Under the pieces are notes generated by a model, which did no database searches, was not told where the DNA came from, and was given only the letters and a program-made list of their open reading frames with translations. Of a stretch of DNA of 64,000 nt, positions 18,481 through 51,914 are shown in pieces. The stretch is from contig NZ_LT629771.1 of the NCBI RefSeq assembly GCF_900105175.1, positions 4,544,501 to 4,608,500 on the forward strand, read 5' to 3'. Every line of letters starts with the position of its first letter. The stretch's first letter is position 1. The stretch comes from Jiangella sp. DSM 45060 (GTDB lineage: Bacteria > Actinomycetota > Actinomycetes > Jiangellales > Jiangellaceae). A program made the translations under genes and the position numbers.

Positions 18481-19602
18481 TCAGAACGCGTATCTGAACA
18501 CGGCCGCGACCGGCCCGCCGCCGGGCACGTCGTCGGCGCGGACGGCCACGACGCGGCCGCCGGCCAGCAGCACCCGGCGGGCGATCTCGTCGGCGACGCC
18601 GTAGCTGGCGGCGTCGTCGGCGGCGGTCGTCACCGCGCCGGACTCCTCGTCGACGTAGCCGGGCAGCTTCTCGTCGATGTCGACGACCAGCGTGTCGACG
18701 ACGCCGTACGTCGCGGCCCGCGCGATGGTCGCGACGTCGCCCGAGGCGCGGCCCTGGTCGAAGCGCCGGCCGAAGAGGTCGCGCAGCTCCGCGAGCTGCC
18801 CGGCGTAGAGATCGTCGAGCACCGTCCGCGCGCTGTCGGCCAGCTCGGCGTCGGTGCTGCCCTCGGGGCTGCCCGCGATGCCGGGGCCGGCCAGGTGCGG
18901 GTAGCTGTTCACCGAGCGGTAGATGGCGTCGAGCGGCTCGGTGGCGGCGAGGATCAGCGGCAGCTCGAGGCCGGTGAGCACGCCGCGCAGCGCTTGGTCG
19001 ACCTTGCGCGCGTACTGGCGCAGCCGGACCTTCTGCCCTTCCGAGCCCTGGATGCGCCCGACCGGCGCGCGGTCGGCGAGCGACGACTTCCCCGCCGCCG
19101 ATGCGGCGTCGGACGGCAGCCCCGGCACGTCGACGGTGAACGGCGGGCCGTCGCGGGTGACCTCGACCAGCCGCACCGACCCGGCCGCGAGCGCGAGCAC
19201 GAACCCGGCCTGCGGGAACGTGACGGCGCGCAGCAGCGGCTTCACGTAGAACCGGTCGCTGACCTCGACGACGCCGGTCAGCTCGTTCGGCAGCCGGAAC
19301 ACCGTCACACCGCCCGGCGCCGCGAACACCGCCAGGCTGCGCGCCTGCTCGGCCCAGAAGTCGTCGTCCTCGACGAGGTCGTCCAGCGACTCCCTGACGT
19401 CGGCGACGGCGCCACGCTCGGCGCCGGCCTCGTCCAGCTGCCGCAGCGCCTCGGCCGCGAGGTTCTTCAGCTCGATCCGTCCGGTCTGAGCCTGCTGCGT
19501 GAGCGGGCTCGTCGGCACGTAGATCGAGACACTGGCGTGGTCGCGCGCCGCGATCAGCCGTTCCAGCTGTGCGCGCGTCGGGATGTCCGTGTGCAGCGTC
19601 AC
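18481..19602 (-). CDS. Bacterial archaeo-eukaryotic release factor (baeRF) family protein
   Basis: A 373-residue protein resembling the baeRF families (3/11-like): N-terminal SVSIYVPTSP, a middle RNase H-fold-like region with FVLALAAGSVRLVEV, and a C-terminal Pelota-like eL30 region ending VVAVRADDVPGG. Family members are thought to act in ribosome rescue or RNA binding; direct evidence is scarce. It starts at GTG 19602 with a poor ribosome site. The stop touches the antiporter start, an arrangement that suggests coexpression. The NmrA gene ends 12 bp upstream, so all three may be one transcript. Confidence 0.75.
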   Translation of the reverse strand: MTLHTDIPTRAQLERLIAARDHASVSIYVPTSPLTQQAQTGRIELKNLAAEALRQLDEAGAERGAVADVRESLDDLVEDDDFWAEQARSLAVFAAPGGVTVFRLPNELTGVVEVSDRFYVKPLLRAVTFPQAGFVLALAAGSVRLVEVTRDGPPFTVDVPGLPSDAASAAGKSSLADRAPVGRIQGSEGQKVRLRQYARKVDQALRGVLTGLELPLILAATEPLDAIYRSVNSYPHLAGPGIAGSPEGSTDAELADSARTVLDDLYAGQLAELRDLFGRRFDQGRASGDVATIARAATYGVVDTLVVDIDEKLPGYVDEESGAVTTAADDAASYGVADEIARRVLLAGGRVVAVRADDVPGGGPVAAVFRYAF

Positions 19603-21581: not shown

Positions 21582-21606
21582 GCATGCGCGGTGCGGGCGC
21601 GGGTAC
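21582..21606 (+). promoter_or_regulatory. SigB-type promoter of the P450 gene
   Basis: GCAT (21582-21585, within GCATGC), 15 bp, then GGGTAC (21601-21606). Only 9 nt separate the -10 box from the ATG at 21616, so the transcript would be leaderless or nearly so. The pattern matches the GNNT-N14-16-GGGTAC/T consensus that I recall for Streptomyces SigB and recurs several times in this window. Confidence 0.6.
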
Positions 21607-21615
21607 CGAGCGGGC

Positions 21616-22830
21616 ATGGCGATCAGCGGGGACGGCGCGCTCGGGCTGTGGCGGCGGGGCTACGGGTGGGCGAGCGCCGAGCGTGCGGGCCGGGCGGCCG
21701 CGCCGATCCGGTTCCTCGGCCGCCCGTCGGTGGTGGTCGGCGGGCCCGCGGGCGTGTCGCGGTTCTACGATCCGCGGCTGCGGCGCCAGGGGGCCGTCCC
21801 GGCGCCGGTCGGCGACGTCCTGTTCGGCCACGGCTCGGTCCACGGCCTCGACGACGAGCCACACCACCGGCACAAGGCGAGGTACCTGCAGTTGCTCACT
21901 CCCGCCGCCGCCGACGCGCTGCGCTCGAGTGCGCGGCGGGAGTGGGAGCGCGCCGCCCGGGTCTGGGAGCCCGGCCGCCCGGTGGTGCTCTTCGACGTGG
22001 CGGTGCGGGTACTCACGGCGACGGTGCTGCCGTGGGCCGGCGTCGCGGCCGGTCCGGACGGGGTCGAGCGACGTGCCGGCCAGCTGGCGGCGGTGCTGGA
22101 CGGGTTCGCCCGCCCGGGCGTGCCGTACCTGCGCGCCGTCGCCGCCCGGCGCCGCCTGGACCGGTGGGCGTCCGGCCTGGTCCGCGGTGCGCGCGACGGC
22201 GGGCTGCGGGTCCCTCCGGGCACGCCGCTGGACGTCATGGCGCAGGCCCGTGACGCCGACGGGCGGTTGCTGACGCCGCGGGACGCCGGCGTCGCCCTGC
22301 TCAACGTGGTGCGGCCGGCGGTGGCCGTGGCGTGGTTCGTGGCCTTCGCGGCCGTCGCCCTGGCGCACCAGCCGTACTGGCGGGACCGCATCGCCGCCGG
22401 CGACGACGCGGCACTCGGCGCGTTCGCGCGGGAGGTCCGCCGCCACTACCCGTTCGTGCCGGTGCTCGCCGCCCGGGCCCGCGGCGACCAGGACGTGCTC
22501 GGCGTCGACGTCCCGGCCGGCGGCTACGTGGTGCTCGACGTCTACGGCACCGACCACGACCCTGCGCACTGGCCGGACCCGGACCGCTTCGACCCCCGGC
22601 GCTTCCTCGGCCCGCCGCCCCGGCCCGGCACGCTGATCCCGCAGGGAGGCGGCGCCCTGCGCACCGGGCACCGCTGCCCGGGCGAGGACGTCACCCTCGT
22701 CCTGCTCGAGGAGGCCGTCCGCCGTCTGGCGTCGACCCGGCCGGAGCTCCCGGACCAGGACCTGACCGTGGACCTCACCCGCATCCCGGCCCTGCCGCGC
22801 AGCGGGGTGCTGATCGCCGTCGCCCCATGA
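21616..22830 (+). CDS. Cytochrome P450, CYP152-type fatty-acid peroxygenase
   Basis: A 404-residue soluble P450. The haem loop is GHRCPGED with Cys354, preceded by IPQGGG, and the ExxR motif is E273-R276. The I-helix lacks the usual acid-Thr pair and instead carries R233-P234 (NVVRPAVAVAW). That Arg-Pro is the hallmark of CYP152 enzymes, where Arg salt-bridges the fatty-acid carboxylate and H2O2 is used directly. HHRHK at 83-87 fits the family's active-site entry. It should hydroxylate or decarboxylate fatty acids with peroxide and needs no redox partner. A stress-type promoter precedes it, and DUF6098 overlaps its stop. Confidence 0.9.
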   Translation: MAISGDGALGLWRRGYGWASAERAGRAAAPIRFLGRPSVVVGGPAGVSRFYDPRLRRQGAVPAPVGDVLFGHGSVHGLDDEPHHRHKARYLQLLTPAAADALRSSARREWERAARVWEPGRPVVLFDVAVRVLTATVLPWAGVAAGPDGVERRAGQLAAVLDGFARPGVPYLRAVAARRRLDRWASGLVRGARDGGLRVPPGTPLDVMAQARDADGRLLTPRDAGVALLNVVRPAVAVAWFVAFAAVALAHQPYWRDRIAAGDDAALGAFAREVRRHYPFVPVLAARARGDQDVLGVDVPAGGYVVLDVYGTDHDPAHWPDPDRFDPRRFLGPPPRPGTLIPQGGGALRTGHRCPGEDVTLVLLEEAVRRLASTRPELPDQDLTVDLTRIPALPRSGVLIAVAP

Positions 22831-23252
22831 CCCGCGACGACCTGCCGGTCCTGGACTCGCTGGACGACGTCGTGCGGGCGGTCCGCGACCATCCCGGCCT
22901 GCTCGTCCGGTACTCGAACGGCCCGGACGCCGACCGGCGCGACGGGCCGAGCCGCGACTACGAGGCCGGCCTGGACCTGCCGGGCTGGTCGGTCACGACG
23001 CTGCAGCCCGAGCCGTGGTGGCCGCGACCCCCGGCCGACTGGATCGCCCGCCGGCTGTGCAAGTACGACGAGCTGGGCCAGGACGGCCGCTTCCCCTGGC
23101 TGCTCACGGGCCGGGTCGTCGGCGAGGGCCCGGACCACGAGCCACTCGTCACCGACCTCGTCCCGGTGGCCAGGGTGGGCCGCCGGGCGCTCGCCGACGC
23201 CCGGCGTAGGTACGAGGAACGCTTCGACGTCGGACGTGGCTCGGCGGACTGA
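22827..23252 (+). CDS. DUF6098 family protein
   Basis: A 141-residue soluble protein of unknown function. It resembles the actinobacterial DUF6098 group (LVRYSNGPDADR, SRDYEAGLDLPGWSV, PEPWWPRP). The tryptophan-rich centre and the LVTDLVPVARVGRRAL strand are its clearest landmarks. The ATG at 22827 overlaps the P450 stop (ATGA), indicating coupling. No catalytic motif is visible. The neighbourhood (peroxygenase, hemerythrin, Rieske oxidoreductase) suggests a stress or redox function by association only. Confidence 0.75.
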   Translation: MTRDDLPVLDSLDDVVRAVRDHPGLLVRYSNGPDADRRDGPSRDYEAGLDLPGWSVTTLQPEPWWPRPPADWIARRLCKYDELGQDGRFPWLLTGRVVGEGPDHEPLVTDLVPVARVGRRALADARRRYEERFDVGRGSAD

Positions 23253-23268
23253 CGGCGCGCGGGCCGGG

Positions 23269-23294
23269 GCATGCCGCCGCCCCGCCCCGGGTAC
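23269..23294 (+). promoter_or_regulatory. SigB-type promoter of the hemerythrin operon
   Basis: GCAT (23269-23272, within GCATGC), 16 bp, then GGGTAC (23289-23294), 40 nt ahead of the hemerythrin start. It shares the extended GCATGC upstream box with the promoters at 21582 and 51618. Confidence 0.6.
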
Positions 23295-23334
23295 GGGCCT
23301 GGCCAGCCTGGCGCCGACGAAAGGGTGGAAGACG

Positions 23335-23889
23335 ATGAGCGACAGCCGTGACGTGGTGGACCTGATCGAGAAGGACCACCGGGAGATCGAGCGGCTCTTC
23401 GAGCTGCTGCGCACCGACCCAGGGCAGCGCGACCTGGCGGTGACGGAGGTGACGGCGCTGCTGGTCGCGCACAGCCGGGCCGAGGAGGCCGAGGTGTACC
23501 CCGTCGCGCGGGACGAGGCCGGCGAGACCGACGAGGTGGCGCACAGCCAGGAGGAGCATGCCGAGGCCGAGGCGATCCTCGAGCGGCTGGCCGCGATGGA
23601 CGCGCACGACCCGGGGTACGAGGCGGTGCTGCGCGAGCTGGTCGACTCCGTCGGCCACCACGTCGAGGAGGAGGAGAACACCGTCCTGCCGGGCATGCGG
23701 CAGCGCCTCAGCGACGAGCGCCGGGCCGAGCTGGGCGAGGCGTTCCTCGCCGCCCGGGCCGACCACCTCGGTGACCGTCCGGGCGAGGCCACCCGGGCGG
23801 AGCTGGCCCAGCAGGCCCGCAACCTCGGCGTCGACGGCACGTCCGGCATGTCCAAGGACGAGCTGCGCGACGAGGTCACGCCCGACTGA
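23335..23889 (+). CDS. Hemerythrin HHE-domain protein with C-terminal Rho-N/SAP-like tail
   Basis: A 184-residue protein. Residues 10-130 form a four-helix HHE cation-binding domain; the likely di-iron ligands are in DHREIERLF, HSRAEEAEVYP, HSQEEHAEAE and HHVEEEENTVLP. The last 35 residues (TRAELAQQARNLGVDGTSGMSKDELRDEV) look like a Rho-N/SAP-type nucleic-acid-binding helix pair. Hemerythrins bind O2, NO or peroxide through iron. It starts at ATG 23335, preceded by AAAGGG and a stress-type promoter, and leads into DUF6766 and the Rieske oxidoreductase. Confidence 0.88.
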   Translation: MSDSRDVVDLIEKDHREIERLFELLRTDPGQRDLAVTEVTALLVAHSRAEEAEVYPVARDEAGETDEVAHSQEEHAEAEAILERLAAMDAHDPGYEAVLRELVDSVGHHVEEEENTVLPGMRQRLSDERRAELGEAFLAARADHLGDRPGEATRAELAQQARNLGVDGTSGMSKDELRDEVTPD

Positions 23890-23899
23890 AGGGGTCATC

Positions 23900-24274
23900 A
23901 TGCGGAATCTGCGCCGCTGGGGCGCGGTGTACGTCCTGATCCTGTTGTTCCTCGGCTCCTGGCTGGGGCAGTTCTTCACCCAGCTCTCGGAGTTCCGCAG
24001 CGAGCAGCAGGCGCACGGCGAGCCGTTCACCTGGTCGAGCTATATGGCGTCGTTCTTCGCCTCGACGTTCGAGAACTGGCAGAGCGAGTGGCTGCAGCTG
24101 GTCTTCCAGGCCGTCCTGCTGCTGGCCGCGAAGCACCTGCTGTTCCAGGCCGACGCCGAGGACCTGGAGCGGATCGAACGGAAGATCGACACCATCCACG
24201 AGCACGTCGGCGCCGGCAGGCCCGAACCGGCCGAGGGCGACGACGCCGCGATCGGCCCGGAACCACGCACCTGA
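23900..24274 (+). CDS. DUF6766 family membrane protein
   Basis: A 124-residue protein with two predicted transmembrane helices (VYVLILLFLGSWLGQFF and LQLVFQAVLLLAAKHLLF) joined by a loop rich in aromatic residues, EPFTWSSYMASFFASTFENWQSEW, and a charged cytoplasmic tail beginning DAEDLERIERKID. It resembles the DUF6766 group of actinobacterial and other stress loci. Function is unknown. The ATG at 23900 follows the hemerythrin stop by 10 bp, and the Rieske oxidoreductase gene starts 25 bp downstream. Confidence 0.75.
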   Translation: MRNLRRWGAVYVLILLFLGSWLGQFFTQLSEFRSEQQAHGEPFTWSSYMASFFASTFENWQSEWLQLVFQAVLLLAAKHLLFQADAEDLERIERKIDTIHEHVGAGRPEPAEGDDAAIGPEPRT

Positions 24275-24299
24275 CCACCTGCGCCAGAAGGAGACACCG

Positions 24300-25802
24300 A
24301 TGTCGTACTGGCTGGACAGCACCGGCGACCCGCCGCTCGCGCCCTCGCCGCCGGTGAACGCGGACGTCGTGGTCCTGGGCGCCGGCATCGCGGGCATCAC
24401 GACGGCGTACCTGGCGAAGCGGGCCGGGCTGACGGTGACGCTGGTCGAGGCGGACGACCGGCTGGCGGCGGGGGTCACCGGGCACACCACGGCCAAGGTG
24501 ACCAGTCAGCACGGCGCTATGTATGCGCCGCTGACCAGCAGGTTCGGCGCCGAGACGGCACGCGCGTACGGCTCCGGGCAGCAGCTGGCGATCGACTGGA
24601 TCGAGACCGAGGCCGACGCGATCGGCGCGACGATGGACTGGTCGCGACGCGACTCCTACGTCTTCGCCGAGCGGCCCTCGTCCGTCGACGGGCTGCGCCG
24701 CGAGGCCGACGCCGCCGCGGCCGCCGGCCTTCCGGCCACGTTCACCGGCGAGACCGGCCTGCCGTTCGAGGTCTCGGGTGCGGTGCGGTTCACCGGCCAG
24801 GCGCAGTTCCACCCGCGGCGATGGCTGATGGAGCTGGCCACCCGCATCCCCGGCGACGGCGGCACCGTCGTCACGGGCACCCGGGCGCTCGGGCTGACCG
24901 AGGGCGACCCCTGCGTCGTCGAGACCACGGACGGCCCGGTCCGCGGCCGGCACGTGGTCGTCGCGACGCACTACCCGGTGTTCGACCGCGGCCTCTTCTT
25001 CGCCCGGCTGGAGCCGCGGCGCGACCTCGTCGTCGCCGGGTACACCGACGACGGCGACGGCCCGCCCGGCATGTACATCAGCGCCGAGGACCGGCACTCC
25101 GTCCGCACGACCCCGGCGGAGGACGGCCGCACGCTGCTGATCGTCGGCGGCGAGCCGCACCGCGTCGGCGCCCGCACCAGCGTCGCGGACCACTACGACC
25201 GGCTGCGGGCCTGGGCCGCCGAGCGGCTGGGGCTGCGGGAACCGGTCTACCGGTGGCTCGCGCACGACCTCACGACCGTCGACACGCTGCCGTACGTCGG
25301 CCGGTTCCACCCGCGCGCCCGCAACGTCTGGGTCGCGACCGGGTTCGGGCACTGGGGCATGACGAACGGGACGCTGGCGGCACTGCTGCTGCGCGACCTC
25401 ATCACCGGCGTGGAGAATCCGCTGGCCGGCATGCTCGACCCGCAGCGGAGCACCGTCCGGCAGTCGGCGGCGGAGTTCGTCAAGGCCAACGCCTACGTCG
25501 CCGCCCGATTCCTCGGCGACCGCGCCACCGCCCTGGCCGACCGTCACGACCTCGCGTCGCTGCCGCCGGGCCGCGGCCGGGTCGTGCGCGACGGCGTCCG
25601 CGCGGTCGCCGCCTACCGCGACGACGACGGCGGGCTGCGGTGCGTGTCCGCACGCTGCACCCACCTGGGCTGCCTGGTGGTGTTCAACGACGCGGAGAAG
25701 ACCTGGGACTGCCCCTGTCACGCGTCGCGGTTCGGCACCGACGGCCGGGTGCTGGCCGGTCCCGCGGTCCACCCACTGGACACCGTCACCCCGCCCGGCT
25801 GA
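24300..25802 (+). CDS. FAD-dependent oxidoreductase with C-terminal Rieske [2Fe-2S] domain
   Basis: A 500-residue fusion. Residues 22-400 are a DAO-type FAD domain with the dinucleotide motif VVVLGAGIAGITTAYLAKRAG and TGHTTAKVTSQHG. The C-terminal 90 residues are a Rieske domain with cluster ligands CTH (x-L-G-C) and CPCHASRFG. This architecture is recurrent in actinobacterial stress loci; the electron acceptor and substrate are unknown. ATG 24300 follows AGGAGA. It is the last gene of the hemerythrin, DUF6766, oxidoreductase unit. It converges with a decayed SDR gene whose last codons begin about 16 bp beyond its stop. Confidence 0.92.
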   Translation: MSYWLDSTGDPPLAPSPPVNADVVVLGAGIAGITTAYLAKRAGLTVTLVEADDRLAAGVTGHTTAKVTSQHGAMYAPLTSRFGAETARAYGSGQQLAIDWIETEADAIGATMDWSRRDSYVFAERPSSVDGLRREADAAAAAGLPATFTGETGLPFEVSGAVRFTGQAQFHPRRWLMELATRIPGDGGTVVTGTRALGLTEGDPCVVETTDGPVRGRHVVVATHYPVFDRGLFFARLEPRRDLVVAGYTDDGDGPPGMYISAEDRHSVRTTPAEDGRTLLIVGGEPHRVGARTSVADHYDRLRAWAAERLGLREPVYRWLAHDLTTVDTLPYVGRFHPRARNVWVATGFGHWGMTNGTLAALLLRDLITGVENPLAGMLDPQRSTVRQSAAEFVKANAYVAARFLGDRATALADRHDLASLPPGRGRVVRDGVRAVAAYRDDDGGLRCVSARCTHLGCLVVFNDAEKTWDCPCHASRFGTDGRVLAGPAVHPLDTVTPPG

Positions 25803-25817
25803 CCACGACCGCGGCCG

Positions 25818-26455
25818 TCAGCTCCGCCACCACGCCCAGGCGCCGGCGGCAGCGGCCGCGCCGGTCGCGGCAGCGGCCAGGCCACGGCGGTGCCGCGAGA
25901 GCCCGAACTGCGGGCTCCCGGCCGCCGCGCGGCGGCCGAACCGCCCGGTTCGGATTGTCGGCGGCGTGCGGGATCGCCGTCGCGGCCAGCTCCGGCGGGA
26001 AGATCGGCGGCACCGGCTGGGCCCGGTGCGGCAGCCGCGACAGCACCCAGTCGAACTGCGGCGTGTTGACGGCGGAGAGCTGGACCATGGTGACGCGCAC
26101 GTGTGAACGGTCGTGCAGCAGCTCGCACCGCAACGAGTCGTGGAAGCCCTGGATGGCGTGCTTCGCGCCGCAGTACGCCGACTGCAGCGGGATGCCGCGG
26201 TACGCCAGAGCGGAGCCGACCTGGACGATGACGCCGCGGTCGCGGGGGAGCATCCGTTCCAGCGCGGCGCGCGTGCCGTGGACGTAGCCCAGGTACGTCA
26301 CCTCGGTGGTGCGGCGGAACTCCTCCGGCGTGATCCGCATGAACGCCGCCCCGCGCCAGCAGCGCGACCCGGTCACCGCGCCAGGCGAACGCGCGCGCGG
26401 CCGACACCGCCCGATGCCCCGGTCACACCACGACGGTTCTGGCCAGGTCGCTCAT
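25818..26455 (-). pseudogene. Decayed short-chain dehydrogenase/reductase gene
   Basis: Pieces of one SDR protein are spread over all three minus-strand frames. MSDLARTVVV (from ATG 26455) hits TGA. TGASGGVGR follows in a second frame, then RAFAWRGDRVALLARG returns to the first. About 70 codons (strands 3-4, including the NNA motif) are then missing. The body MRITPEEFRRTTEVTYLG to the YCGAKHAIQG catalytic Tyr-Lys and HAADNPN continues in the next frame from about 26345 down. Another gap of perhaps 60 codons leads to SPQFGLSRHRRGLAAAATG and a terminal helix ending at TGA 25818 in the third frame. At least four lesions are needed, so an active enzyme is very unlikely. Confidence 0.75.
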
Positions 26456-43457: not shown

Positions 43458-43664
43458 CTACGGCTTCAGCTTGTCCGGCAGCACCTTGTGAGTGCCGTCG
43501 CACCACGGCTGGTCGGTGGACTTGCCGCACCGGCAGACGGCGCTGACGGGGCGGGTGGTGCGGTGCGCCCGGCCGTCGGCGTCGGCGACGACGTGCTCGC
43601 CGCGTAGCAGCAGCGGCCCGCCGGGGCAGACGATGACGTCGGGGTGCTCGATGCGGTCCGTCAT
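43458..43664 (-). CDS. CDGSH-type iron-sulfur protein
   Basis: A 68-residue protein with one CDGSH zinc-finger-like [2Fe-2S] motif: CRCGKSTDQPWCDGTH, three Cys and one His ligand. These small proteins carry a labile redox-active cluster used in iron or electron transfer and stress sensing. The ATG at 43664 overlaps the stop of the haem-oxygenase-like gene, so the pair is translationally coupled. The same pairing occurs widely in actinobacteria. Confidence 0.92.
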   Translation of the reverse strand: MTDRIEHPDVIVCPGGPLLLRGEHVVADADGRAHRTTRPVSAVCRCGKSTDQPWCDGTHKVLPDKLKP

Positions 43665-44608
43665 GCCGCCACGCTCCGGTCCGCGAGCCAGCGCCGGGCG
43701 AACCGGTCCTCCAGCCCGAGACAGGTCAGCGCGCCGAACACCACCTCCGGAGCCTGGGCCGGCTCCTCGGCGACCAGCGCCCCGCAGATGGTGCGGACGG
43801 CGAGCTGCTCGTGCACGGCGTCGGCCTCGACGTGCTCCTCGTAGTAGGCGATCATCTCGGCCGGGAGCCCGAGCCGTTCCAGGCCCTGCGCCATCCGCCG
43901 CGACGGCAGCGAGCTGGTCGCCTCGAACGCCGCCAGATGACCGAGTGCCGCGCCGCGCAGCCGGCGGTGCAGCCCGAACAGCGACATCGCGTTGTTCTGC
44001 GCCAGCACCTCGACCGGGACGTCGTCGATGTAGGCCCCGTAGTCCGAGCGCAGGCCGGTGGCGTCGAGGCCGCGGACGAACAGGTGCGAGTGGAGCCGGT
44101 TCGGATCGCCGCAGCCGTACTCGTCGTACTGCAGCTCCATCAGCGCCGCCTTCGGCCCGGTGCTCAGCCGCGGCACCACCCACGCCGTCGGGTCGGCCTC
44201 CTTGAGGTGGTAGATCGTTCGATGACGCAGCAATTCCAGCGTCTGCTCGACGGTGGCGTCGCGCTGCACGAACGACGCGACGGAGGCGCCGTCGAACCCG
44301 TCGATCAGCTCGAACAGGGCGTCGGCGAACGGCTCGGAGAGCTCCGGCGGCGGGAACGACTCACGCAGCTCCGCCTCGAACCGGCGTTCCAGGACGCGGC
44401 GCAGCGTCAGCAGCTCCGGCTCCCATTCCAGTTCGTCGCCGACGTCCTCGAAGCCCCGGTAGGACAGCTCGTACAGCACCCAGAGACTCAGCTGCCGGTC
44501 GGCGTCGTCGGTGGCGGGGACGGCGGCCAGCCCGGCCGTCGCCGTCCCCTCGTGCAGGGCGGCCGCCAGTGCCTCGCTGAGCTCGCCCCGTGCCTTCGGT
44601 ATCCGCAT
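43661..44608 (-). CDS. Iron-containing redox enzyme family protein (haem-oxygenase-like di-iron fold)
   Basis: A 315-residue protein of the haem-oxygenase-like di-iron (HDO) superfamily. The helix ELQYDEYGCGDPNRLHSHLF and the late helix IAYYEEHVEADAVHEQLAVR carry the Glu/His/Asp residues expected for two irons. Characterised relatives activate O2 for unusual lipid or amino-acid oxidations; this one's substrate is unknown. ATG 44608 lies 9 nt after the -10 box of a SigB-type promoter, so the message may be leaderless. The coupled CDGSH protein is a plausible electron donor. Confidence 0.85.
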   Translation of the reverse strand: MRIPKARGELSEALAAALHEGTATAGLAAVPATDDADRQLSLWVLYELSYRGFEDVGDELEWEPELLTLRRVLERRFEAELRESFPPPELSEPFADALFELIDGFDGASVASFVQRDATVEQTLELLRHRTIYHLKEADPTAWVVPRLSTGPKAALMELQYDEYGCGDPNRLHSHLFVRGLDATGLRSDYGAYIDDVPVEVLAQNNAMSLFGLHRRLRGAALGHLAAFEATSSLPSRRMAQGLERLGLPAEMIAYYEEHVEADAVHEQLAVRTICGALVAEEPAQAPEVVFGALTCLGLEDRFARRWLADRSVAA

Positions 44609-44646: not shown

Positions 44647-45453
44647 TCAACGCGGCGCGACCGCCGGTGCGATGCTGGCGCGGAGCTGGCCGAGGATGCG
44701 GGCCAGCAGCCGCGACACCTGCATCTGGGTGACGCCCAGCTCCTCGCCGATCTCCTGCTGCGTCAGCCCCTTGAAGAAGCGCAGGTAGAGGATGCGCCGG
44801 TCGCGTGGCTTCAGCTCCCGGCAGGCCGGGCCGAGCACCGTCACCGCGTCCGCGCGGGCGAAGCCGTCGTCGTCCTCGCCCAGTGCCTCCGCGAGCGGGG
44901 TGTCGTCGTCGCTCATGCGGTAGTCGATGGACGCGGCGGTGAAGCACTCGCGCGACGCCTCGGCCTCGCGGACGTCCTCGACCCCGACCCCGAGATGCCC
45001 GGCCAGCTCCGACGCCGTCGGCGCCCGGCCCTGGTCCTGCGACAACTCCGTCCGGGCCGCCGTCACCGCCGCCGCGAGCTCCTGCACGCGCCGCGGCGGG
45101 CGCACCGTCCACCCGTGGTCGCGGAAGTAGCGCTTCACCTCGCCGCTGATCGTCGGGACCGCGAACGAGACGAAGTCCTTGCCGCGGCCCGGGTCGAACC
45201 GCCGGACCGCGTTCACCAGCCCGAGGTTGGCCACCTGCAGCAGGTCGTCGCGCTCGATGCCGCGCCAGTAGTAGCGCCGCGCGATGGACTCCGCCAGCCC
45301 GAGATTGAGCACGACGACCTCGTCCAGCAGCCGCAGTCGCTCGCCGCCCCGGGCGCCCACAGAGCGCTCCAGCAGCTCCATCGTCAGTCGCTCGTGGTCG
45401 TCATGGTTCTGGTTCTGGTGTCGAATGCCGTGCGTCGCAAGTGCCTGGCGCAT
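44647..45453 (-). CDS. SigB/SigF-type RNA polymerase sigma factor
   Basis: A 268-residue sigma-70 group 3 protein. Region 2 is LNLGLAESIARRYYWRGIERDDLLQVANLGLVNAVRRFDPGRGKDFVSFAVPTISGEVKRYFRDHGWTVRPPRR. Region 3 follows, and region 4 is RDRRILYLRFFKGLTQQEIGEELGVTQMQVSRLLARIL. ATG 45453 has GGAGAGG about 9 nt upstream. No anti-sigma or anti-anti-sigma gene is adjacent. SigB/F proteins of actinobacteria direct osmotic, oxidative and developmental stress genes from GNNT...GGGTAC/T promoters, several of which lie around this gene. Confidence 0.92.
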   Translation of the reverse strand: MRQALATHGIRHQNQNHDDHERLTMELLERSVGARGGERLRLLDEVVVLNLGLAESIARRYYWRGIERDDLLQVANLGLVNAVRRFDPGRGKDFVSFAVPTISGEVKRYFRDHGWTVRPPRRVQELAAAVTAARTELSQDQGRAPTASELAGHLGVGVEDVREAEASRECFTAASIDYRMSDDDTPLAEALGEDDDGFARADAVTVLGPACRELKPRDRRILYLRFFKGLTQQEIGEELGVTQMQVSRLLARILGQLRASIAPAVAPR

Positions 45454-45798: not shown

Positions 45799-46401
45799 GT
45801 GAAGGCCGTGGTCCTGAACTGCACGCTCAAGCCGTCGCCGCAACCGTCCAACACCGGCGCGCTGGCCGACGTCGTTGCCGGATTCCTGGGTGAGGACGGC
45901 GTCGAGGTCACCGCGTTCCGGCTGGCCGACCTGAAGGTCCCGCCCGGCGTCCAGACCGATCTCGGCGACGGCGATGACTGGCCGCGGGTCCACGACGCGA
46001 TCCTCGCCGCCGAAATCCTGGTCGTCGCCAGCCCGACGTGGGTGGGGCGGCCGTCGTCGCTGGCGCAGCGAGCGGTGGAGCGGATGGACGCGATGATCTC
46101 CGAGACCGCTGACGACGGCCGGCCGGTCGCGTTCGACAAGGTCGCCGGCGTCGTCGTCACCGGCAACGAGGACGGCGCGCACCACGTCATCTCCGAGCTG
46201 TGCGGGGCGATGATGGACATCGGGTTCACCATCCCGGCGCAGGCGTGGACCTACTGGCACCTCGGGCCCGGCCCCGGCCCCGACTATCTGGACGAGACCA
46301 AGGGCCACGACTGGGCGCACACCACCGGCCGCACCATGGCGGCCAACCTGGTTGCGACCGCCTCGGCGCTGGCCGCGTCGCCGCTGCCGTCGCCGGCCTG
46401 A
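45799..46401 (+). CDS. NADPH-dependent FMN reductase / flavodoxin-fold protein
   Basis: A 200-residue flavodoxin-fold protein: VVLNCTLKPSPQPSNTG binds the FMN phosphate, VVASPTWVGRPSSLAQRAVERMD is the isoalloxazine loop, and GVVVTGNEDGAHHVISELCG is the next strand. Such enzymes reduce flavins, quinones or nitro compounds with NAD(P)H. GTG 45799 follows GGAAGGGAG. It is monocistronic and converges with gvpK. Its promoter has the SigB-like boxes, in keeping with a stress role. Confidence 0.88.
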   Translation: MKAVVLNCTLKPSPQPSNTGALADVVAGFLGEDGVEVTAFRLADLKVPPGVQTDLGDGDDWPRVHDAILAAEILVVASPTWVGRPSSLAQRAVERMDAMISETADDGRPVAFDKVAGVVVTGNEDGAHHVISELCGAMMDIGFTIPAQAWTYWHLGPGPGPDYLDETKGHDWAHTTGRTMAANLVATASALAASPLPSPA

Positions 46402-46408
46402 CACGGGC

Positions 46409-46702
46409 TCAGTCTCCCAGCAAGGTGCCGAGCGGGCCGAGGTCGAGGTCGAGGTCGCGGACGGTCAGCCCGTACCGGCCGCGCAGCTCGGCCATCGCCT
46501 CGTCCAGCCGCAGCAGGGCCTGGCCCAGCGCCTCCACCTGATCGTCGTCGAGGTCGCCCTCGTCGACGCGGCGCAGCGCCTGCCGCTCCATCAGCTGCCG
46601 GATCAGCTCGACGACCGTCAGGACGAGCTTGAACAGGTCCCGCTCGACGGAGTCCGCGTCGGCGTCGATGCGTTCCGGCAGGACGGCGGGCGGCCGGGTC
46701 AT
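46409..46702 (-). CDS. gvpK: Gas vesicle protein GvpK
   Basis: A 97-residue GvpK. The conserved core PERIDADADSVERDLFKLVLTVVELIRQLMERQALRRVDEGDL is followed by a C-terminal helix EALGQALLRLDEAMAELRGRYGL. GvpK is a minor gas-vesicle assembly factor. It is the last gene of the cluster; its ATG overlaps the gvpS stop by 4 bp. It converges with the FMN reductase gene, 7 bp apart. Confidence 0.93.
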   Translation of the reverse strand: MTRPPAVLPERIDADADSVERDLFKLVLTVVELIRQLMERQALRRVDEGDLDDDQVEALGQALLRLDEAMAELRGRYGLTVRDLDLDLGPLGTLLGD

Positions 46703-46881
46703 CGCCGCTCCTCCGCCCGGATCGAGCGGATCAGCGCGTGCAGCCGGACCTCCACCAGGTCGACGCCGGCGAGGGAGATGACGATGTCGCCGGAGAGCAC
46801 GACGCCGGTGCCGAGCAGCCGGTCGAGCAGGTCGACCAGGGCGATCCGCGCGCCGTCGGGCGGCGCCGGGGCGAGCGTCAC
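46699..46881 (-). CDS. gvpS: GvpA-family minor gas vesicle protein (GvpS-like)
   Basis: A 60-residue GvpA-fold protein (IALVDLLDRLLGTGVVLSGDIVISLAGVDLVEVRLHALIRSI). It lacks the C-terminal extension of the main shell protein. By position (between gvpL and gvpK) it corresponds to GvpS of Streptomyces clusters, thought to nucleate or cap the shell. It overlaps both neighbours by 4 bp. Confidence 0.85.
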   Translation of the reverse strand: MTLAPAPPDGARIALVDLLDRLLGTGVVLSGDIVISLAGVDLVEVRLHALIRSIRAEERR

Positions 46882-47660
46882 GACTCCTCCTCCACCGTGA
46901 CGAACGAGTACGCTGGCCAGGGTCCGGCCAGCTCGAACCGGCAGTCCGGGTGCCGGTCACGCAACGCCTCCACCGTGGCGGCGAAGGCGTCCGCACCATC
47001 GAACGGCACGAGGTAGGCGCCGTTCAGGCACATCGGGGTGTCGTGACCGGTCAGCCGCTGGTCCTGGGCAGCGAGCCGGCGGGCGTCGGCGGCCTGCCGG
47101 GCCAGCTCCTCGTGCACCTGGCCGGCCACCGCCGTCGCATGGGCGAACGCGTCGCCGCGGGCGGAGGCGGCCGCTTTCCGGCGGGTCAGGTAGGCCGCGC
47201 CGGCGCCCGGCGCGCCCGGCGCCGGCTCCGCGTCGGGACGCGGCTCCACCGGCTGCGGCGCGTACACCTTGACGCTCCACTCGGCCCGCCCGGCGACCTC
47301 CTCCAGCGCACTCCGGAAGCCGTCGTGCCAGCGATCCAGCCGGCCGCGGACGGCGTCGTCGTCATCGACGATGGTGCCCAGCCGCAGCGGCGCCACCGGC
47401 GCCGCGCCGGCGACCCCGGCCACGACGGCGTGGTGCGCCCGCGCCGCCGTCTCCAGCCAGGCGAGGTCGGCGAGGTTGCGGGCCAGCCGCTCCTCGCCGA
47501 ACGCACCGTCCGGTCCGACGTCGACGGTGCCGACGACGGCCGCGAGGTCGCGGTGGCGCACGAGGCGCACCGGTTCGTCCGCCACCCCGCGCAACCCGCC
47601 GACGACGTCGTCACCGACCGGCGCCGCGATCGCGTACAGGTAGCAGGCGGTCTCACTCAT
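46878..47660 (-). CDS. gvpL: Gas vesicle protein GvpL (GvpL/F family)
   Basis: A 260-residue GvpL/GvpF-family protein: N-terminal ACYLYAIAAPV and a middle VAPLRLGTIVDDDDAVRGRL. The C-terminal module VHEELARQAADARR...MCLNGAYLVPFDGADAFAATVEAL...ELAGPWPAYSFV is typical. These proteins bind GvpA-type subunits and start assembly. It overlaps gvpJ by 8 bp. One of two GvpL/F paralogues in the cluster; the other is at 48390. Confidence 0.92.
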   Translation of the reverse strand: MSETACYLYAIAAPVGDDVVGGLRGVADEPVRLVRHRDLAAVVGTVDVGPDGAFGEERLARNLADLAWLETAARAHHAVVAGVAGAAPVAPLRLGTIVDDDDAVRGRLDRWHDGFRSALEEVAGRAEWSVKVYAPQPVEPRPDAEPAPGAPGAGAAYLTRRKAAASARGDAFAHATAVAGQVHEELARQAADARRLAAQDQRLTGHDTPMCLNGAYLVPFDGADAFAATVEALRDRHPDCRFELAGPWPAYSFVTVEEES

Positions 47661-47928
47661 CGCGCTCCTCGCCGCTGGACAGCATCGGGTCGCGACGCCA
47701 CCAGTCGATGCCCATCTCCTGGGCCTTGTCGACCGACGCCACCAGGAGCCTGATCCGGATCGTCAGCAGCTCGATGTCGAGCAGGTTCACCCGGATGTCA
47801 CCGGCGATCACGATCCCCTTGTCCAGCACCCGTTCCAGGACGTCGGCGAGGTTCGCCGGCTGCGGCGGCGCGGCCAGCGCCGACCCGTACGGCCGGGTCA
47901 GCGGGGCGCGTTCTCGGGCCTGCGTCAT
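47653..47928 (-). CDS. gvpJ: GvpA-family gas vesicle protein GvpJ
   Basis: A 91-residue GvpA-fold protein (NLADVLERVLDKGIVIAGDIRVNLLDIELLTIRIRLLVASVDKAQEMGIDWW). The IDWWRRDP ending and position upstream of gvpL identify it as GvpJ, a minor shell component affecting vesicle shape. ATG 47928 has GAGAGGACT upstream; the longer reading frame to 48003 would run into gvpO and is rejected. Confidence 0.88.
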   Translation of the reverse strand: MTQARERAPLTRPYGSALAAPPQPANLADVLERVLDKGIVIAGDIRVNLLDIELLTIRIRLLVASVDKAQEMGIDWWRRDPMLSSGEERDE

Positions 47929-47932
47929 GAGT

Positions 47933-48187
47933 TCAGTCCTCTCTCGACGCGCCGCGGGTGTAGCGCCGCACGCGCCGGTAACCGGTGAGGTCGCCGTCCT
48001 CATCGAGGTCGACGGCGTACTCGGCCAGCAGGTCGGTGGAGCGCGGGATCCGCTCCAGCTCGAGCACCTCGACCCGCACCCGCCAGCCGTCGTCGGTCCG
48101 GTGGATGCCGGTGACGGCCTCGGCCGTCCGCCCGCTGAGCGTGGCCAGTTGCTCGACCGCCCGCTCGGCCGCTTCCGTCGCCTTCAC
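47933..48187 (-). CDS. gvpO: Gas vesicle protein GvpO
   Basis: An 84-residue GvpO. Landmarks are LATLSGRTAEAVTGIHRTDDGWRVRVEVLELERIPRSTDLLAEYAVDLDEDGDLTGYRRVRRYTRG. GvpO is essential for vesicle formation in several systems, though its biochemical role is unclear. In Streptomyces clusters it usually leads the operon. Here it sits between gvpG and gvpJ. Its ATG overlaps the gvpG stop. Confidence 0.93.
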   Translation of the reverse strand: MKATEAAERAVEQLATLSGRTAEAVTGIHRTDDGWRVRVEVLELERIPRSTDLLAEYAVDLDEDGDLTGYRRVRRYTRGASRED

Positions 48188-48402
48188 AGCAACCGCCCGA
48201 TCAGCTCGTCCTCCATCGCCGCGGCCTCCTCCTCCGAGAGCAGCCCGGCGGCGCGGGCCTGCTCCACCTGCTCCAGGGCCTGGCGGACGGCGACGGGGTC
48301 GCGGTACTGCCGCTCGGCCTCGTCAGCGACCAGCCGGGCCGCCGCGACCGCCCCCCGCACGGACGCCAGCGGCCAGGTGACCAGTACGGTCAGGACACCC
48401 AT
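48184..48402 (-). CDS. gvpG: Gas vesicle protein GvpG
   Basis: A 72-residue GvpG. An N-terminal hydrophobic helix ([22 protein letters not shown]) is followed by a charged coiled helix (EAERQYRDPVAVRQALEQVEQARAAGLLSEEEAAAMEDELIGRL). It helps aggregate the Gvp complex during assembly. It overlaps gvpF by 13 bp and gvpO by 4 bp. Confidence 0.9.
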   Translation of the reverse strand: MGVLTVLVTWPLASVRGAVAAARLVADEAERQYRDPVAVRQALEQVEQARAAGLLSEEEAAAMEDELIGRLL

Positions 48403-49184
48403 GGGTCGTCACCCGGTACGAAGTCGTACGGTGCCGTCGGCCCGACCAGCCGGATCCGGCCCCGCCCGGTGAGGTCGCTCGCCGCCTGTTCCACGGCCCG
48501 TTCGAAGGCGTCGCGCCGCTCGTCGGCGACCAGGAACGCGATGTCGGCGAGGTAGTCGATCTCGCCCGCGGAACGGACGTTCCAGTCGGCGGCGGCCGGG
48601 GCGAGCAGGTCGAGCAGCGCCGCGCTGTCGGCGTCGCGCTTGAGCTCCAGTGCCCGCGCGACCAACTCGCCCAGCCGGATCCGCTCGGTCCAGCTCGCCT
48701 CGACGCTCTGGTCGCGGGTGCGCTCGCGCAGCGCGGCGATGTCCGCGTACTCCGCGACGATCTCGGCCAGCACGGCCTCCTCGTCGTAGCGGGCCCGGAC
48801 GATGAACTGGCGGCAACCCGCCAGCTCGTCGAGGACCGCTGCGAAGTAGTCCGCGTTCGGCGCCAGCAACTCGGCCACGATGGCGTCCGTGTCGGACACC
48901 ACGGAACCGAACCGCACCGGGATCACCGCGCAGCCCAGCGCCAGCGTGTCCGTCACGCGGCTGTGCGCGAGCAGGTCGTCGCGCCGCCCGAATACGCGGC
49001 CGGTGGCGATCTTCCCGGTCGCGGCGGCCACCGGGCCGTGGGCGACCAGCTCGACGCCGCCGTCGTCGATGCCGGTGAGCTCGTCCGGCACGGGCGCGCC
49101 GACCGGCACGACGGCGTACACGTAGTGCGCCGTCGGCACGGCCGTGTGGCCCTCCATCGTCGGTGCTACCTGCGTCGTCCTCAT
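48390..49184 (-). CDS. gvpF: Gas vesicle protein GvpF (GvpL/F family)
   Basis: A 264-residue GvpL/F protein ([57 protein letters not shown]). GvpF binds GvpA and prevents its aggregation before assembly. The ATG at 49184 overlaps the gvpA stop (ATGA). It shows all family blocks and normal length. Confidence 0.93.
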
Positions 49185-49597
49185 GCGTTCTGACTCCTCC
49201 GGCGGCGAGCGGTGGCCTTCTTGGCCGGCCGCCGCCGCTCCTCGTCCTCGTCGTCGTCGCCCGTGATGGCGTCCTTGATGCCCTCGATGGCGCCGGACGT
49301 CTTGCCCTTGGCGGCCTCGTGCACGCCGTCGCCCATCAGCTCGGTGAGGTCCTTGCCGCCGTGCTCGTACAGGTCGAGCCGGTTGGTGGCCTCGGCGAAG
49401 CGCAGATAGGTGTCGACGCTGGCGATGACGATGCGGGCGTCGATGGTCAGCAGTTCGATGCCGACCAGCGAGACGCGCACGTACGCGTCGATCACGAGTC
49501 CCTTGTCGAGAATGATGTCGATGACGTCGGCGAGGCCGCTGGGCGATGGCCGCTGCAGCTGGCCGCCACCGGAACGTCGCTGGTTGACCATCGTCAT
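49181..49597 (-). CDS. gvpA: Gas vesicle structural protein GvpA with basic C-terminal tail
   Basis: A 138-residue main shell protein. The canonical GvpA core is complete: [55 protein letters not shown]. It is followed by a 75-residue extension that ends in [25 protein letters not shown], acidic then strongly basic. Streptomyces-type GvpA proteins also have extensions. ATG 49597 follows GAGGTGA. The protein polymerises into the hollow vesicle wall. Confidence 0.93.
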
Positions 49598-49604
49598 GTC
49601 GTGA

Positions 49605-50639
49605 TCACCTCTCGGTCTCCTCGTCCTCTTCCAGCTCCTCGTCCTCTTCCGGCTCCTCGTCCTCCTCCGGCTCCTCCTCGAGCTCCTCCTCGTCGCCGAG
49701 CTCCTCCTCGTCGCCGAGCTCCTCCTCGTCGCCGAGGTCCTCCTCGTCCTCCGCGTACTCGTCGTCGTAGGCCTCGTCCTCCTCGGCCTCGCGCTCGCGC
49801 GCCTCCTCGTCGGTCTCCTCGACCTCGCCCTCGTGGATCTCGCCGCGCCAGCCCTCGACCTGGTCGGGGTCGCGCAGGAGGTGCACCATGACGTGGCGGC
49901 GGAAGTGCTTGAGCTCCAGCCGGGCCCGGCGGCCAGGCGCCCGCCAGAGGTTGCCGGTGCGCTCGACCAGCCCCTGGGGGTAGTACTCGAGCACGACGAC
50001 CACCCTGGTCAGCCGCGGCGCCAGTTCGTGGAACGTCACGGCGCCGTCGACGTGGCCCTTCTCCCCCGCCGAGCGCCAGACGATCAACTCGTCCGGCACC
50101 TGCTCGAGGATGGTCGCCGACCACGTGCGGTGCGACCAGAACACCTGCGCCTTGAAATCCAGCTTCTCGTCGGACTTCTGCTCGACGCTCTCGACCTTCT
50201 TCATGAAGCCGGCGAAGTCCTGGAACTGCGTCCACTGGTCGTAGACGACGCGGACCGGGGCGCCGATGTCGATCTCCTCGACGATGTTCGTCGAGCGGGT
50301 CGCCTTGTCACCCTTGGTGCCCCCGTTCGAGCCGCCGCGGGAGAAGGCGCCCGCGACCTTGTCCTTGACGCCGCCGACGGCACCCTTGACCGCGCCGGTC
50401 AGCCCGTCCTTCGCGGCACCCGCGACAGCGGCGCCGCCGATCGGGCCGCCGCCGGCGATGTCGTCGAGTTTGTCGGTGGCCTTGCCGATACGCTCACCGG
50501 CGGACTTCATCGCCCACTCGCCGAGCGACGTGAGCCCGTTCTTCGCCTCGTCCTTGAGCCGGTCCAGCGGCAACTCGTCGAGCACGCCGCGCAGGCTCTG
50601 CTCCGGGCGGGCATCGGTCTCGGTGTCGGTGCGTGCCAT
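49605..50639 (-). CDS. Gas-vesicle-cluster SRPBCC protein with long acidic tail (GvpZ-like)
   Basis: A 344-residue protein. The N-terminal 110 residues are helical and Gly/Ala/Lys-rich ([22 protein letters not shown]). Residues about 115-255 form a SRPBCC/cyclase-type domain ([34 protein letters not shown]). The last 85 residues are almost only Glu and Asp, with GDEEEL repeated in tandem. ATG 50639 has GGGGAGG 8 nt upstream; the GTG at 50648 abuts that site. Such proteins accompany actinobacterial gas vesicle genes (the gvpY/gvpZ positions), with unknown roles. It precedes gvpA by 7 bp. Confidence 0.8.
49680..49751 (-). repeat. 18-bp tandem repeat encoding GDEEEL
   Basis: Three perfect 18-bp units (49680-49697, 49698-49715, 49716-49733; unit GAGCTCCTCCTCGTCGCC on the plus strand) and a fourth degenerate one (49734-49751). 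They code for Gly-Asp-Glu-Glu-Glu-Leu in the acidic tail. Perfect identity suggests recent slippage and likely length variation between strains. Confidence 0.85.
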
Positions 50640-50644
50640 GCGGG

Positions 50645-51238
50645 TCACCTCCCCGAGCCGGCGCGCGAACGGCCGGACGACGCGGTCTTCTTCGCCGCCC
50701 GCTTACGGGCCGGCTTCTCCTTGCGCGACGACTCCTTGCGCGACGACGCCGAGCGCTTGGCCGGCGCCTTCTTGGCGGCGCGCTTGCGCGGCCGCTTCTC
50801 CTCGGCGGGCTCTTCCTCGGCCGCTTCCTCTTCGGCGGGCTCTTCCTTGGCCGGCTCCTCCTCGACGTCCTCGACGTCCTCGGCCTCGTCGGAGTCGCGG
50901 CCGCCGCTGATCGGGGTCCGCTCGGTGACCGCGCCGGTCAGCCGATCGGATCGGTCTCGGATGGAGTCGCTGAGCTGGTCGATGCGCTGACCCACCACGC
51001 CGACGGCGGCGCCGCGGGCGGCGGTGTACAGCGTCGTGCGGACCTGGTCGGTGAGCTGCGCCAGCTCGGGGCGGCTCTCGACGAGCTCGCCGGCCTGGCG
51101 CAGCATGCCGCGTGGATCGGTGGCCAGTCGCTTGCCGGCCAGCATGCTGCCGACCGCGATCGCCAGCTTCAGCCGCTTCCTGCGGCCGAGAATGTAGCCA
51201 GTGGCCGCCGCTAAGGCGACCCGGGTAGCCGTGTTCAT
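50645..51238 (-). CDS. Gas-vesicle-cluster protein with histone-H1-like basic tail (GvpY-like)
   Basis: A 197-residue protein. The N-terminus has a glycine-containing hydrophobic helix (VALAAATGYILGRRKRLKLAIAVGSMLAG) that could insert in a membrane or vesicle surface. A middle region AAVGVVGQRIDQLSDSIRDRSDRLTG is helical. A Glu/Ala/Pro stretch (EEPAKEEPAEEEAAEEEPAEEK) then leads to a Lys/Arg/Ala tail (RPRKRAAKKAPAKRSASSRKESSRKEKPARKRAAKK) like bacterial histone H1 tails. ATG 51238 follows AAGGAGG. Genes of this type lie at the head of actinobacterial gvp clusters; function is untested. Confidence 0.75.
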   Translation of the reverse strand: MNTATRVALAAATGYILGRRKRLKLAIAVGSMLAGKRLATDPRGMLRQAGELVESRPELAQLTDQVRTTLYTAARGAAVGVVGQRIDQLSDSIRDRSDRLTGAVTERTPISGGRDSDEAEDVEDVEEEPAKEEPAEEEAAEEEPAEEKRPRKRAAKKAPAKRSASSRKESSRKEKPARKRAAKKTASSGRSRAGSGR

Positions 51239-51289
51239 CGCACCCTCCTTCGGGTGTGGGTTCGTGTCTTCGCCGGCGTTCGCCGCCAG

Positions 51290-51514
51290 TCAGGCGGCCA
51301 GCCGCAGCAGCCGCTGGAGCATCGGGATGCTCGGGTACAGGTCCTCCTCGACCCGCTCCATCAGCAGCTCCGCGTATTCGGCGATGTCGTCGTCCGTGAG
51401 CAGCGCCTCGATGTGGTCGAGCATCGTCGGCGAGGGGTACTGGTCCGCCCCGACCTTGCGCATCAGCGCAGCGAGAACCGCCTTCCGGACCGCTTCCTGA
51501 TTCCGCGTCGGCAT
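51290..51514 (-). CDS. Small helical protein heading the gas vesicle cluster
   Basis: A 74-residue protein that I do not recognise by name. It contains an internal duplication: ADQYPSPTMLDHIEALL and EDLYPSIPMLQRLLRL share (D/E)xYPSxxML and a following amphipathic helix. ATG 51514 has GGAGGG a short 4 nt upstream. It is the first gene of the gas vesicle transcription unit, 51 bp before the GvpY-like gene. The repeat architecture suggests a small adaptor binding two like partners; this is inference. Confidence 0.7.
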   Translation of the reverse strand: MPTRNQEAVRKAVLAALMRKVGADQYPSPTMLDHIEALLTDDDIAEYAELLMERVEEDLYPSIPMLQRLLRLAA

Positions 51515-51617: not shown

Positions 51618-51643
51618 GCATGCGATGGGCGGCGACGGGGTAC
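51618..51643 (+). promoter_or_regulatory. SigB-type promoter of the DUF7218-like gene
   Basis: GCAT (51618-51621, within GCATGC), 16 bp, then GGGTAC (51638-51643), 46 nt ahead of the ATG at 51690. It is the third copy with the extended GCATGC box. Confidence 0.55.
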
Positions 51644-51689: not shown

Positions 51690-51914
51690 ATGCCCAGCAA
51701 GTCGGCGAACGTCAAGAACGAGAAGCAGTACGAAGCCCTGAAGGACAAGGGCATGTCGAAGGAGCGGGCGGCACGCATCGCCAACTCCCCCGGCGCGTCG
51801 AAGCGCGGCGGGAAACAGAGCGGCTCCGGCGGCGACAGCTCGCAGGGCGGCACCACCGCGCAGAAGAAGAAGGCGGGCCGCAAGGGCGGGAAGGCGGCCG
51901 CCCGCAAGAGCTAG
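51690..51914 (+). CDS. Small basic DUF7218-like protein
   Basis: A 74-residue protein: VKNEKQYEALKDKGMSKERAARIANSP, then a Gly/Ser linker and a Lys/Arg/Ala tail. The KxYEALxxKGMSKxxAAxIANSP block is common in small actinobacterial and rhizobial stress proteins (DUF7218-like). It may bind nucleic acid through the helix and basic tail. ATG 51690 follows GGGAGG. Divergent from the gas vesicle cluster and led by a SigB-type promoter. Confidence 0.8.
   Translation: MPSKSANVKNEKQYEALKDKGMSKERAARIANSPGASKRGGKQSGSGGDSSQGGTTAQKKKAGRKGGKAAARKS

Follow-up and report, generated by a model that had tools for sequence, protein, structure and literature searches.

Five consecutive genes in a 64-kb stretch of Jiangella sp. 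DSM 45060 DNA (the window; the genome is a single contig of 7.49 Mb) encode a CYP152-type cytochrome P450, a DUF6098 protein, a hemerythrin, a short DUF6766 protein, and a flavin adenine dinucleotide (FAD)/Rieske oxidoreductase (Table 1). We propose, with a probability of roughly 0.7, that this run comprises two adjacent general-stress units that work in parallel within a reshuffled SigB-type island of stress and gas-vesicle genes. Unit 1 would be P450-DUF6098 and unit 2 hemerythrin-DUF6766-FAD/Rieske, each with its own SigB-type promoter. Both units would be transcribed by a SigB/F-type sigma factor under osmotic, oxidative, or stationary-phase stress, and both would belong to an often-rearranged island whose other members in the genus include sigma-factor, DUF7218, and gas-vesicle genes. 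The P450 would oxidize fatty acids with H2O2, the di-iron site of the hemerythrin would bind O2 or peroxide, with a possible further role in regulation or translation, and the FAD/Rieske enzyme would oxidize some substrate, the three activities not forming one pathway. Since the five-gene line-up was found in no other Jiangella genome examined, the genes look like parallel members of a general stress response; in relatives they frequently lie close to gas-vesicle genes. The kind of system is ordinary, a general stress regulon, of which CYP152-DUF6098 is possibly a new member.

Table 1. Features of the run and of the surrounding island, in window coordinates
Feature	Coordinates	Strand	Remarks
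SigB-type boxes GCATG-N14-GGGTA	21582..21605	+	GGGTA ends 10 nt before P450 ATG
CYP152-type P450	21616..22830	+	404 aa
DUF6098 protein	22827..23252	+	141 aa; 4-nt overlap (ATGA) with P450 gene
SigB-type boxes GCATG-N15-GGGTA	23269..23293	+	First base 66 nt before hemerythrin ATG
Hemerythrin HHE protein with C-terminal Rho_N-like tail	23335..23889	+	184 aa
Short DUF6766 protein	23900..24274	+	124 aa; matches profile positions 5-74 of 221 only (N-terminal third)
FAD (DAO) oxidoreductase with fused C-terminal Rieske domain	24300..25802	+	500 aa; CTHLGC...CPCH motif
Sigma-70-type factor (regions 2, 3, 4)	44647..45381	-	Putative SigB/F group
Gas-vesicle gene cluster	46409..51514	-	Pfam Gas_vesicle match for gene 49181-49597
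Third GCATG-N15-GGGTA site	51618..51642	+	Upstream of DUF7218 gene 51690-51914

An earlier note on this DNA had placed two SigB-type promoters in the run, and the boxes support this prediction. The motif GCATG-N14-16-GGGTA occurs three times in the window, compared with a mean of 0.07 in shuffled sequences, and no shuffle out of 100 contained three or more. With 12 such sites in the whole genome, the presence of three within 64 kb has a Poisson P of ~2e-4, uncorrected for the sites having been noticed beforehand. Seven of the 12 were judged to lie 34 to 78 nucleotides (nt) upstream of a gene start, using a home-made gene caller and, for a Ku-like gene, a start picked by eye. The canonical form GTTT-N14-17-GGGTA has 21 sites in the genome versus 3 for the reversed control. 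Since the GGGTA box is so close to the P450 start codon, the P450 mRNA could be nearly leaderless; in J. anatolica, GGGTA ends 11 nt ahead of the P450 start. The GCATG form was also seen at two further loci of the same genome (L142 and L141), ahead of genes that we take, from their sequences, to be zinc-alcohol-dehydrogenase-like and Ku-like.

The sites were conserved in relatives. They were counted per homologue row, a row being a tblastn match of >55% identity that begins ≤15 residues from the protein start; among them are relic copies and two copies that come from a single genome. A GNNT...GGG(A/T)A site was present ahead of 8 of 10 Jiangella P450 rows when starts were set by homology and ahead of 4 of 8 when gene-caller starts were used instead. 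For the hemerythrin, an upstream site was found in 13 of 16 rows from Jiangella and its family (4 of the 16 from outside the genus). Its first base lies 53 to 71 nt ahead of the start in 12 of these 13 rows and 34 nt ahead in the remaining one, and the spacers vary in sequence and length while the boxes persist. All 10 DUF7218 rows were preceded by a site. DUF6766 carried one whenever it headed a unit (4/4) and never when it lay behind hemerythrin (0/5; in one case an alpha/beta-hydrolase-like gene intervenes). Among the remaining called genes of the genus loci, a site was present in 40 of 418, while the reversed pattern gave 5 of 418; the islands as a whole thus abound in such sites. The putative promoters combine the GNNT and GGGTA elements, fitting spacing, upstream position, and conservation that characterize SigB/SigF-type promoters. 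As judged from these alignments, sites stay with genes that move, and SigB-type control of the run is supported by the local clustering of the boxes and by their conservation. The island would then be an example of a regulon kept together by gene-linked promoters while gene order turns over.

Gene order does turn over. Of 12 Jiangella genomes, only the window's own has the five-gene order, whose conservation the earlier note had proposed as a check, and the genes occur apart in relatives. A P450 match was present in 10 of the 12 (the copy in genome G010 has two in-frame stops), close hemerythrin homologues in 10 (none in G001 and only a 30% match in G011), the FAD/Rieske protein in 11 (no match in G004), DUF6098 in 11, and DUF6766 in 9 at an E value of 0.001, with fragments in G004 and G010. 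A single five-gene system did not survive this neighborhood comparison, and the separate SigB-type site of DUF6766 when it heads a unit likewise speaks against one.

Several observations weigh against parallel units under SigB-type control. P450 and DUF6098 are same-strand neighbors in 6 of the 10 P450-bearing genomes, and hemerythrin directly adjoins DUF6766 in 4 of 12 (one of these hemerythrins is damaged); because both pairs recur, some coupling is possible. Across the whole genome, neither the GCATG form (12 sites versus 22 for the reversed control) nor the degenerate GNNT-N14-16-GGGTAC form (290 versus 332) is enriched, so the case for the boxes is one of local clustering and conservation. 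FAD/Rieske rows had a site in 6 of 12 cases, and its presence did not distinguish cleanly between genes that head a unit and genes that follow in one; of six FAD/Rieske homologues from outside the family, one had a GGGTA site and one a GGGAA site. Finally, several relatives carry two sigma-factor homologues in the stretches covered, which leaves the sigma factor in the window as a candidate reader of the run's promoters.

The recurrent association with gas-vesicle (gvp) genes could also reflect a different history, in which the ancestral unit was a gas-vesicle accessory module, P450-DUF6098-gvp-VOC-hemerythrin-DUF6766, which the window's lineage would have lost at this position. In G002, G007, and G008, the order is P450-DUF6098-[gas-vesicle cluster]-hemerythrin, and DUF6766 follows in G002 and G007 and is not there in G008. 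In G002, the order is pieced together over a break between contigs that falls within one of the gvp genes, the G007 hemerythrin is damaged by an internal deletion, and the G008 hemerythrin is shortened, with a second, full copy elsewhere. G009 retains remnants of gvp and hemerythrin close to one another, and in G003, G006, and G010 a gvp cluster is no more than ~4 kb away from one or more of the five genes. In the stretches covered, a cluster or relic was found at that distance in 7 of 11 relatives, which also agrees with the stress/gas-vesicle island proposed above. In G004 and G005, however, P450, DUF6098, and hemerythrin follow one another with no gvp genes among them, although a VOC-like gene on the opposite strand intervenes, and the rpoB tree, in which G000 groups with G004 and G010 and the deeper branches have no firm order, does not settle the sequence of events among the eight relevant genomes. 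The picture outside the genus also argues against such a module. A P450-alignment scan of named genomes was used to keep the best 80 of at least 501 confirmed relatives, of which 78 lie outside Jiangella. No match to six of the seven tallied gas-vesicle-cluster genes was seen around these 78 loci by tblastn with window proteins (≤10 kb on each side, with several contigs shorter; distant forms can be missed). The seventh (49605-50639, Polyketide_cyc by Pfam) gave two partial matches, at L070 and L114. We regard a lost module of this kind as unlikely. Two side observations: hemerythrin and gas-vesicle relics lie close together at L057 (9810-10935), a decayed island copy, and contig 1 of G009 has three rpoB matches near its ends, one of them broken, reflecting either assembly overlap or a real extra copy.

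The identities that the earlier note gave to the five genes were all as described, with the qualifications that DUF6766 matches its profile only in part, that the Rho_N tail of the hemerythrin scores below cut-off, and that the P450 and DUF6098 genes overlap. The P450 matched the CYP152 structure 3awq (fatty acid alpha-hydroxylase; E 1.3e-76) nearly full-length, over residues 21-399, and also 4l40, an olefin-forming decarboxylase (E 8.8e-72). Arg233-Pro234 and Cys354 were invariant among 14 aligned homologues; we take them to be the I-helix Arg-Pro and the heme-thiolate Cys of the CYP152 motif. These features are shared with the CYP152 peroxygenases SP-alpha, BS-beta, and OleT, whereas the overlap with a DUF6098 gene and a score of 327.4 bits against the CypC equivalog NF053744, under its cut-off of 600, set the Jiangella protein apart. 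From its family membership, the P450 should use H2O2 on fatty acids. His76 presumably aligns with the site occupied by His in the decarboxylase OleT and by Gln in BS-beta, and given that position, alkene formation is possible. For DUF6098, the AlphaFold model was confident (predicted local distance difference test score, 89.6), but fold searches of the PDB returned no confident match (best Foldseek E value, 0.042; VIA Z ≤3.9, with unrelated rows tied), and a literature search on the term DUF6098 returned no paper. That CYP152 and DUF6098 make up an unrecognized partner of gas-vesicle and general-stress islands in Jiangella, with a SigB-controlled P450 producing hydroxy fatty acids or terminal alkenes under stress and a translationally coupled DUF6098, is an idea we consider improbable.

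The hemerythrin scored 52.5 bits against its Pfam model (cut-off, 25.3). H15, H46, E50, H75, H109, and E113, presumably the di-iron ligands, were invariant in 14 homologues. The Rho_N-like tail was likewise kept across the 14 homologues despite a Rho_N score of 20.6 bits, under the Pfam cut-off of 24.9. A model of PA2171, a Pseudomonas ribosome-binding persister protein (PMC13041383), matches residues 7-143 of the hemerythrin; since the score is 42.8 bits where 190 are required, and the Rho_N-like tail is extra, the hemerythrin is not a member of that family by this measure. In the FAD/Rieske protein, the cluster ligands C453, H455, C471, and H474 were invariant (n = 16), and the Rieske part is closest to b6f-type proteins and has an extra cysteine pair. 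A role as redox partner of the P450 was considered and is disfavored because these two features suggest a high potential and because the two genes are close together in few genomes.

The conserved cofactor-binding residues of P450, hemerythrin, and FAD/Rieske, and the SigB-type sites common to P450 and hemerythrin, would also fit the earlier note's idea that the three proteins act together in a system dedicated to peroxide consumption or lipid repair. A hemerythrin near 9 of the 78 CYP152 loci outside Jiangella points the same way; 4 of the 78 had a SigB-like gene, 2 FAD/Rieske, and 1 DUF6766. Streptomyces loci account for five of the nine hemerythrins; the distance is similar in all five, and one event may lie behind them. 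In Streptomyces omiyaensis (L103), heme-oxygenase-like, FAD/Rieske, P450, and SigB-like genes lie together. Against joint action, DUF6098 was near none of the 78 loci in the same tblastn tally and FAD/Rieske was near only 2; within Jiangella, the five-gene order is confined to one genome, 2 of the 12 have no P450 match, and G004 has no FAD/Rieske match. Nothing was found that links hemerythrin or FAD/Rieske to lipid repair. Moreover, Mycobacterium smegmatis lacking the hemerythrin MsmHr is more, not less, resistant to H2O2 (PMC4295536), which cautions against assuming that a hemerythrin is a protective scavenger. A joint system of this kind is thus quite unlikely. Chance neighborhood without common control would agree with the variable gene order and with the lack of genome-wide enrichment of the GCATG and GNNT forms but is very unlikely in view of three strict boxes where shuffles average 0.07 and of the conservation of the sites in relatives.

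The two-unit reading, with a SigB-type promoter ahead of the P450, can be compared with CYP152 genes at large. CYP152 enzymes are the subject of biofuel and biocatalysis work, and to our knowledge their role inside the cell is unclear. A strict SigB-type motif preceded CYP152 in 23 of 73 GC-rich loci, and the reversed control did so in 1 of 73. Other genes in these loci had the strict motif in 84 of 1031 cases (reversed, 17; Fisher P = 5e-8 versus P450s), or in 80 of 792 when an upstream gap of at least 50 nt was required (reversed, 13; Fisher P = 2e-6). A looser motif gave 29 of 79 versus 4 of 79 reversed over all CYP152 loci but one, which was too short upstream; the GC-rich set also omits 6 loci with ≤62% GC. 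Since loci within a genus are not independent, the Fisher P values overstate the link. By genus, the loci with a site numbered as follows: Pseudonocardia (3/3), Jiangella (2/2), Actinokineospora (2/2), Micromonospora (6/15), Streptomyces (5/28), and Modestobacter (0/3). Among 24 genus groups, 10 had any motif, and the P450 fraction was above that of other genes in 10 and below it in 7. On these motif counts, SigB-type sites before CYP152 are recurrent but patchy in several actinobacterial lineages. This is possibly a new observation; a literature search limited to the pairing of CYP152 with sigma factor returned no paper. With sites of this kind in several lineages, induction by stress would become a role of these enzymes that experiments could address directly.

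The nearest known counterpart is the SigF regulon of M. smegmatis. According to PMC4694148, its promoter consensus is GTTT-N14-19-GGGTA, and the regulon includes the hemerythrin MSMEG_2415, the P450 MSMEG_1775, and the FAD oxidoreductase MSMEG_0670 beside the hydroxymethyl-glutathione dehydrogenase MSMEG_0671. By gene listing, hemerythrin, P450, FAD oxidoreductase, and promoter form are common to both systems, whereas the Jiangella -35 box is GCAT(G) rather than GTTT. The word Rieske does not appear in the text of PMC4694148, and MSMEG_1775 is likened here as a P450 only, not as a CYP152. MsmHr, which going by primer names is MSMEG_2415, is described in PMC4295536 and PMC4694148 as SigF dependent and as a repressor of sigF. 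The promoter form is also that of the Streptomyces SigB-type regulons, whose consensus is quoted as GNNTN-N14-16-GGGTAY in PMC5402319; nine SigB homologues are counted in Streptomyces in PMC8346170. Unlike the Jiangella island, these sources do not contain, in their main texts, the words hemerythrin, P450, or gas vesicle. A tie between gas vesicles and stress in Streptomyces is nevertheless already in print, at least in papers that treat the two next to each other, and is not new in itself.

In the window, the gas-vesicle cluster lies 20 kb from the run, beside the sigma-factor and DUF7218 genes; its gvp labels other than the Pfam-matched one are presumptive. Sigma-factor homologues also occur near island genes in several relatives. 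A Haem_oxygenas_2 protein (43664-44608, minus strand) and a flavin mononucleotide (FMN) reductase (45799-46398, plus strand) flank the sigma factor by the cluster, and homologues of the two recur beside sigma-factor or FAD/Rieske genes elsewhere. A similar island in another family (L149) combines homologues of three window genes (heme-oxygenase-like, sigma factor, FAD/Rieske) with genes that we take to be topoisomerase-IB-like and zinc-alcohol-dehydrogenase-like. Closer to the run, an AraC-type regulator gene on the same strand ends 47 nt upstream. A few kilobases away, a stress-type gene (18481-19602, minus strand) encodes a baeRF-type protein close to a family of ribosome hibernation factors (score, 108.8 bits; cut-off, 330). 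At the other end, an SDR gene (25786-26340, minus strand) overlaps the 3′ end of the FAD/Rieske gene; it covers positions 99-235 of a 334-position model and is probably a truncated remnant.

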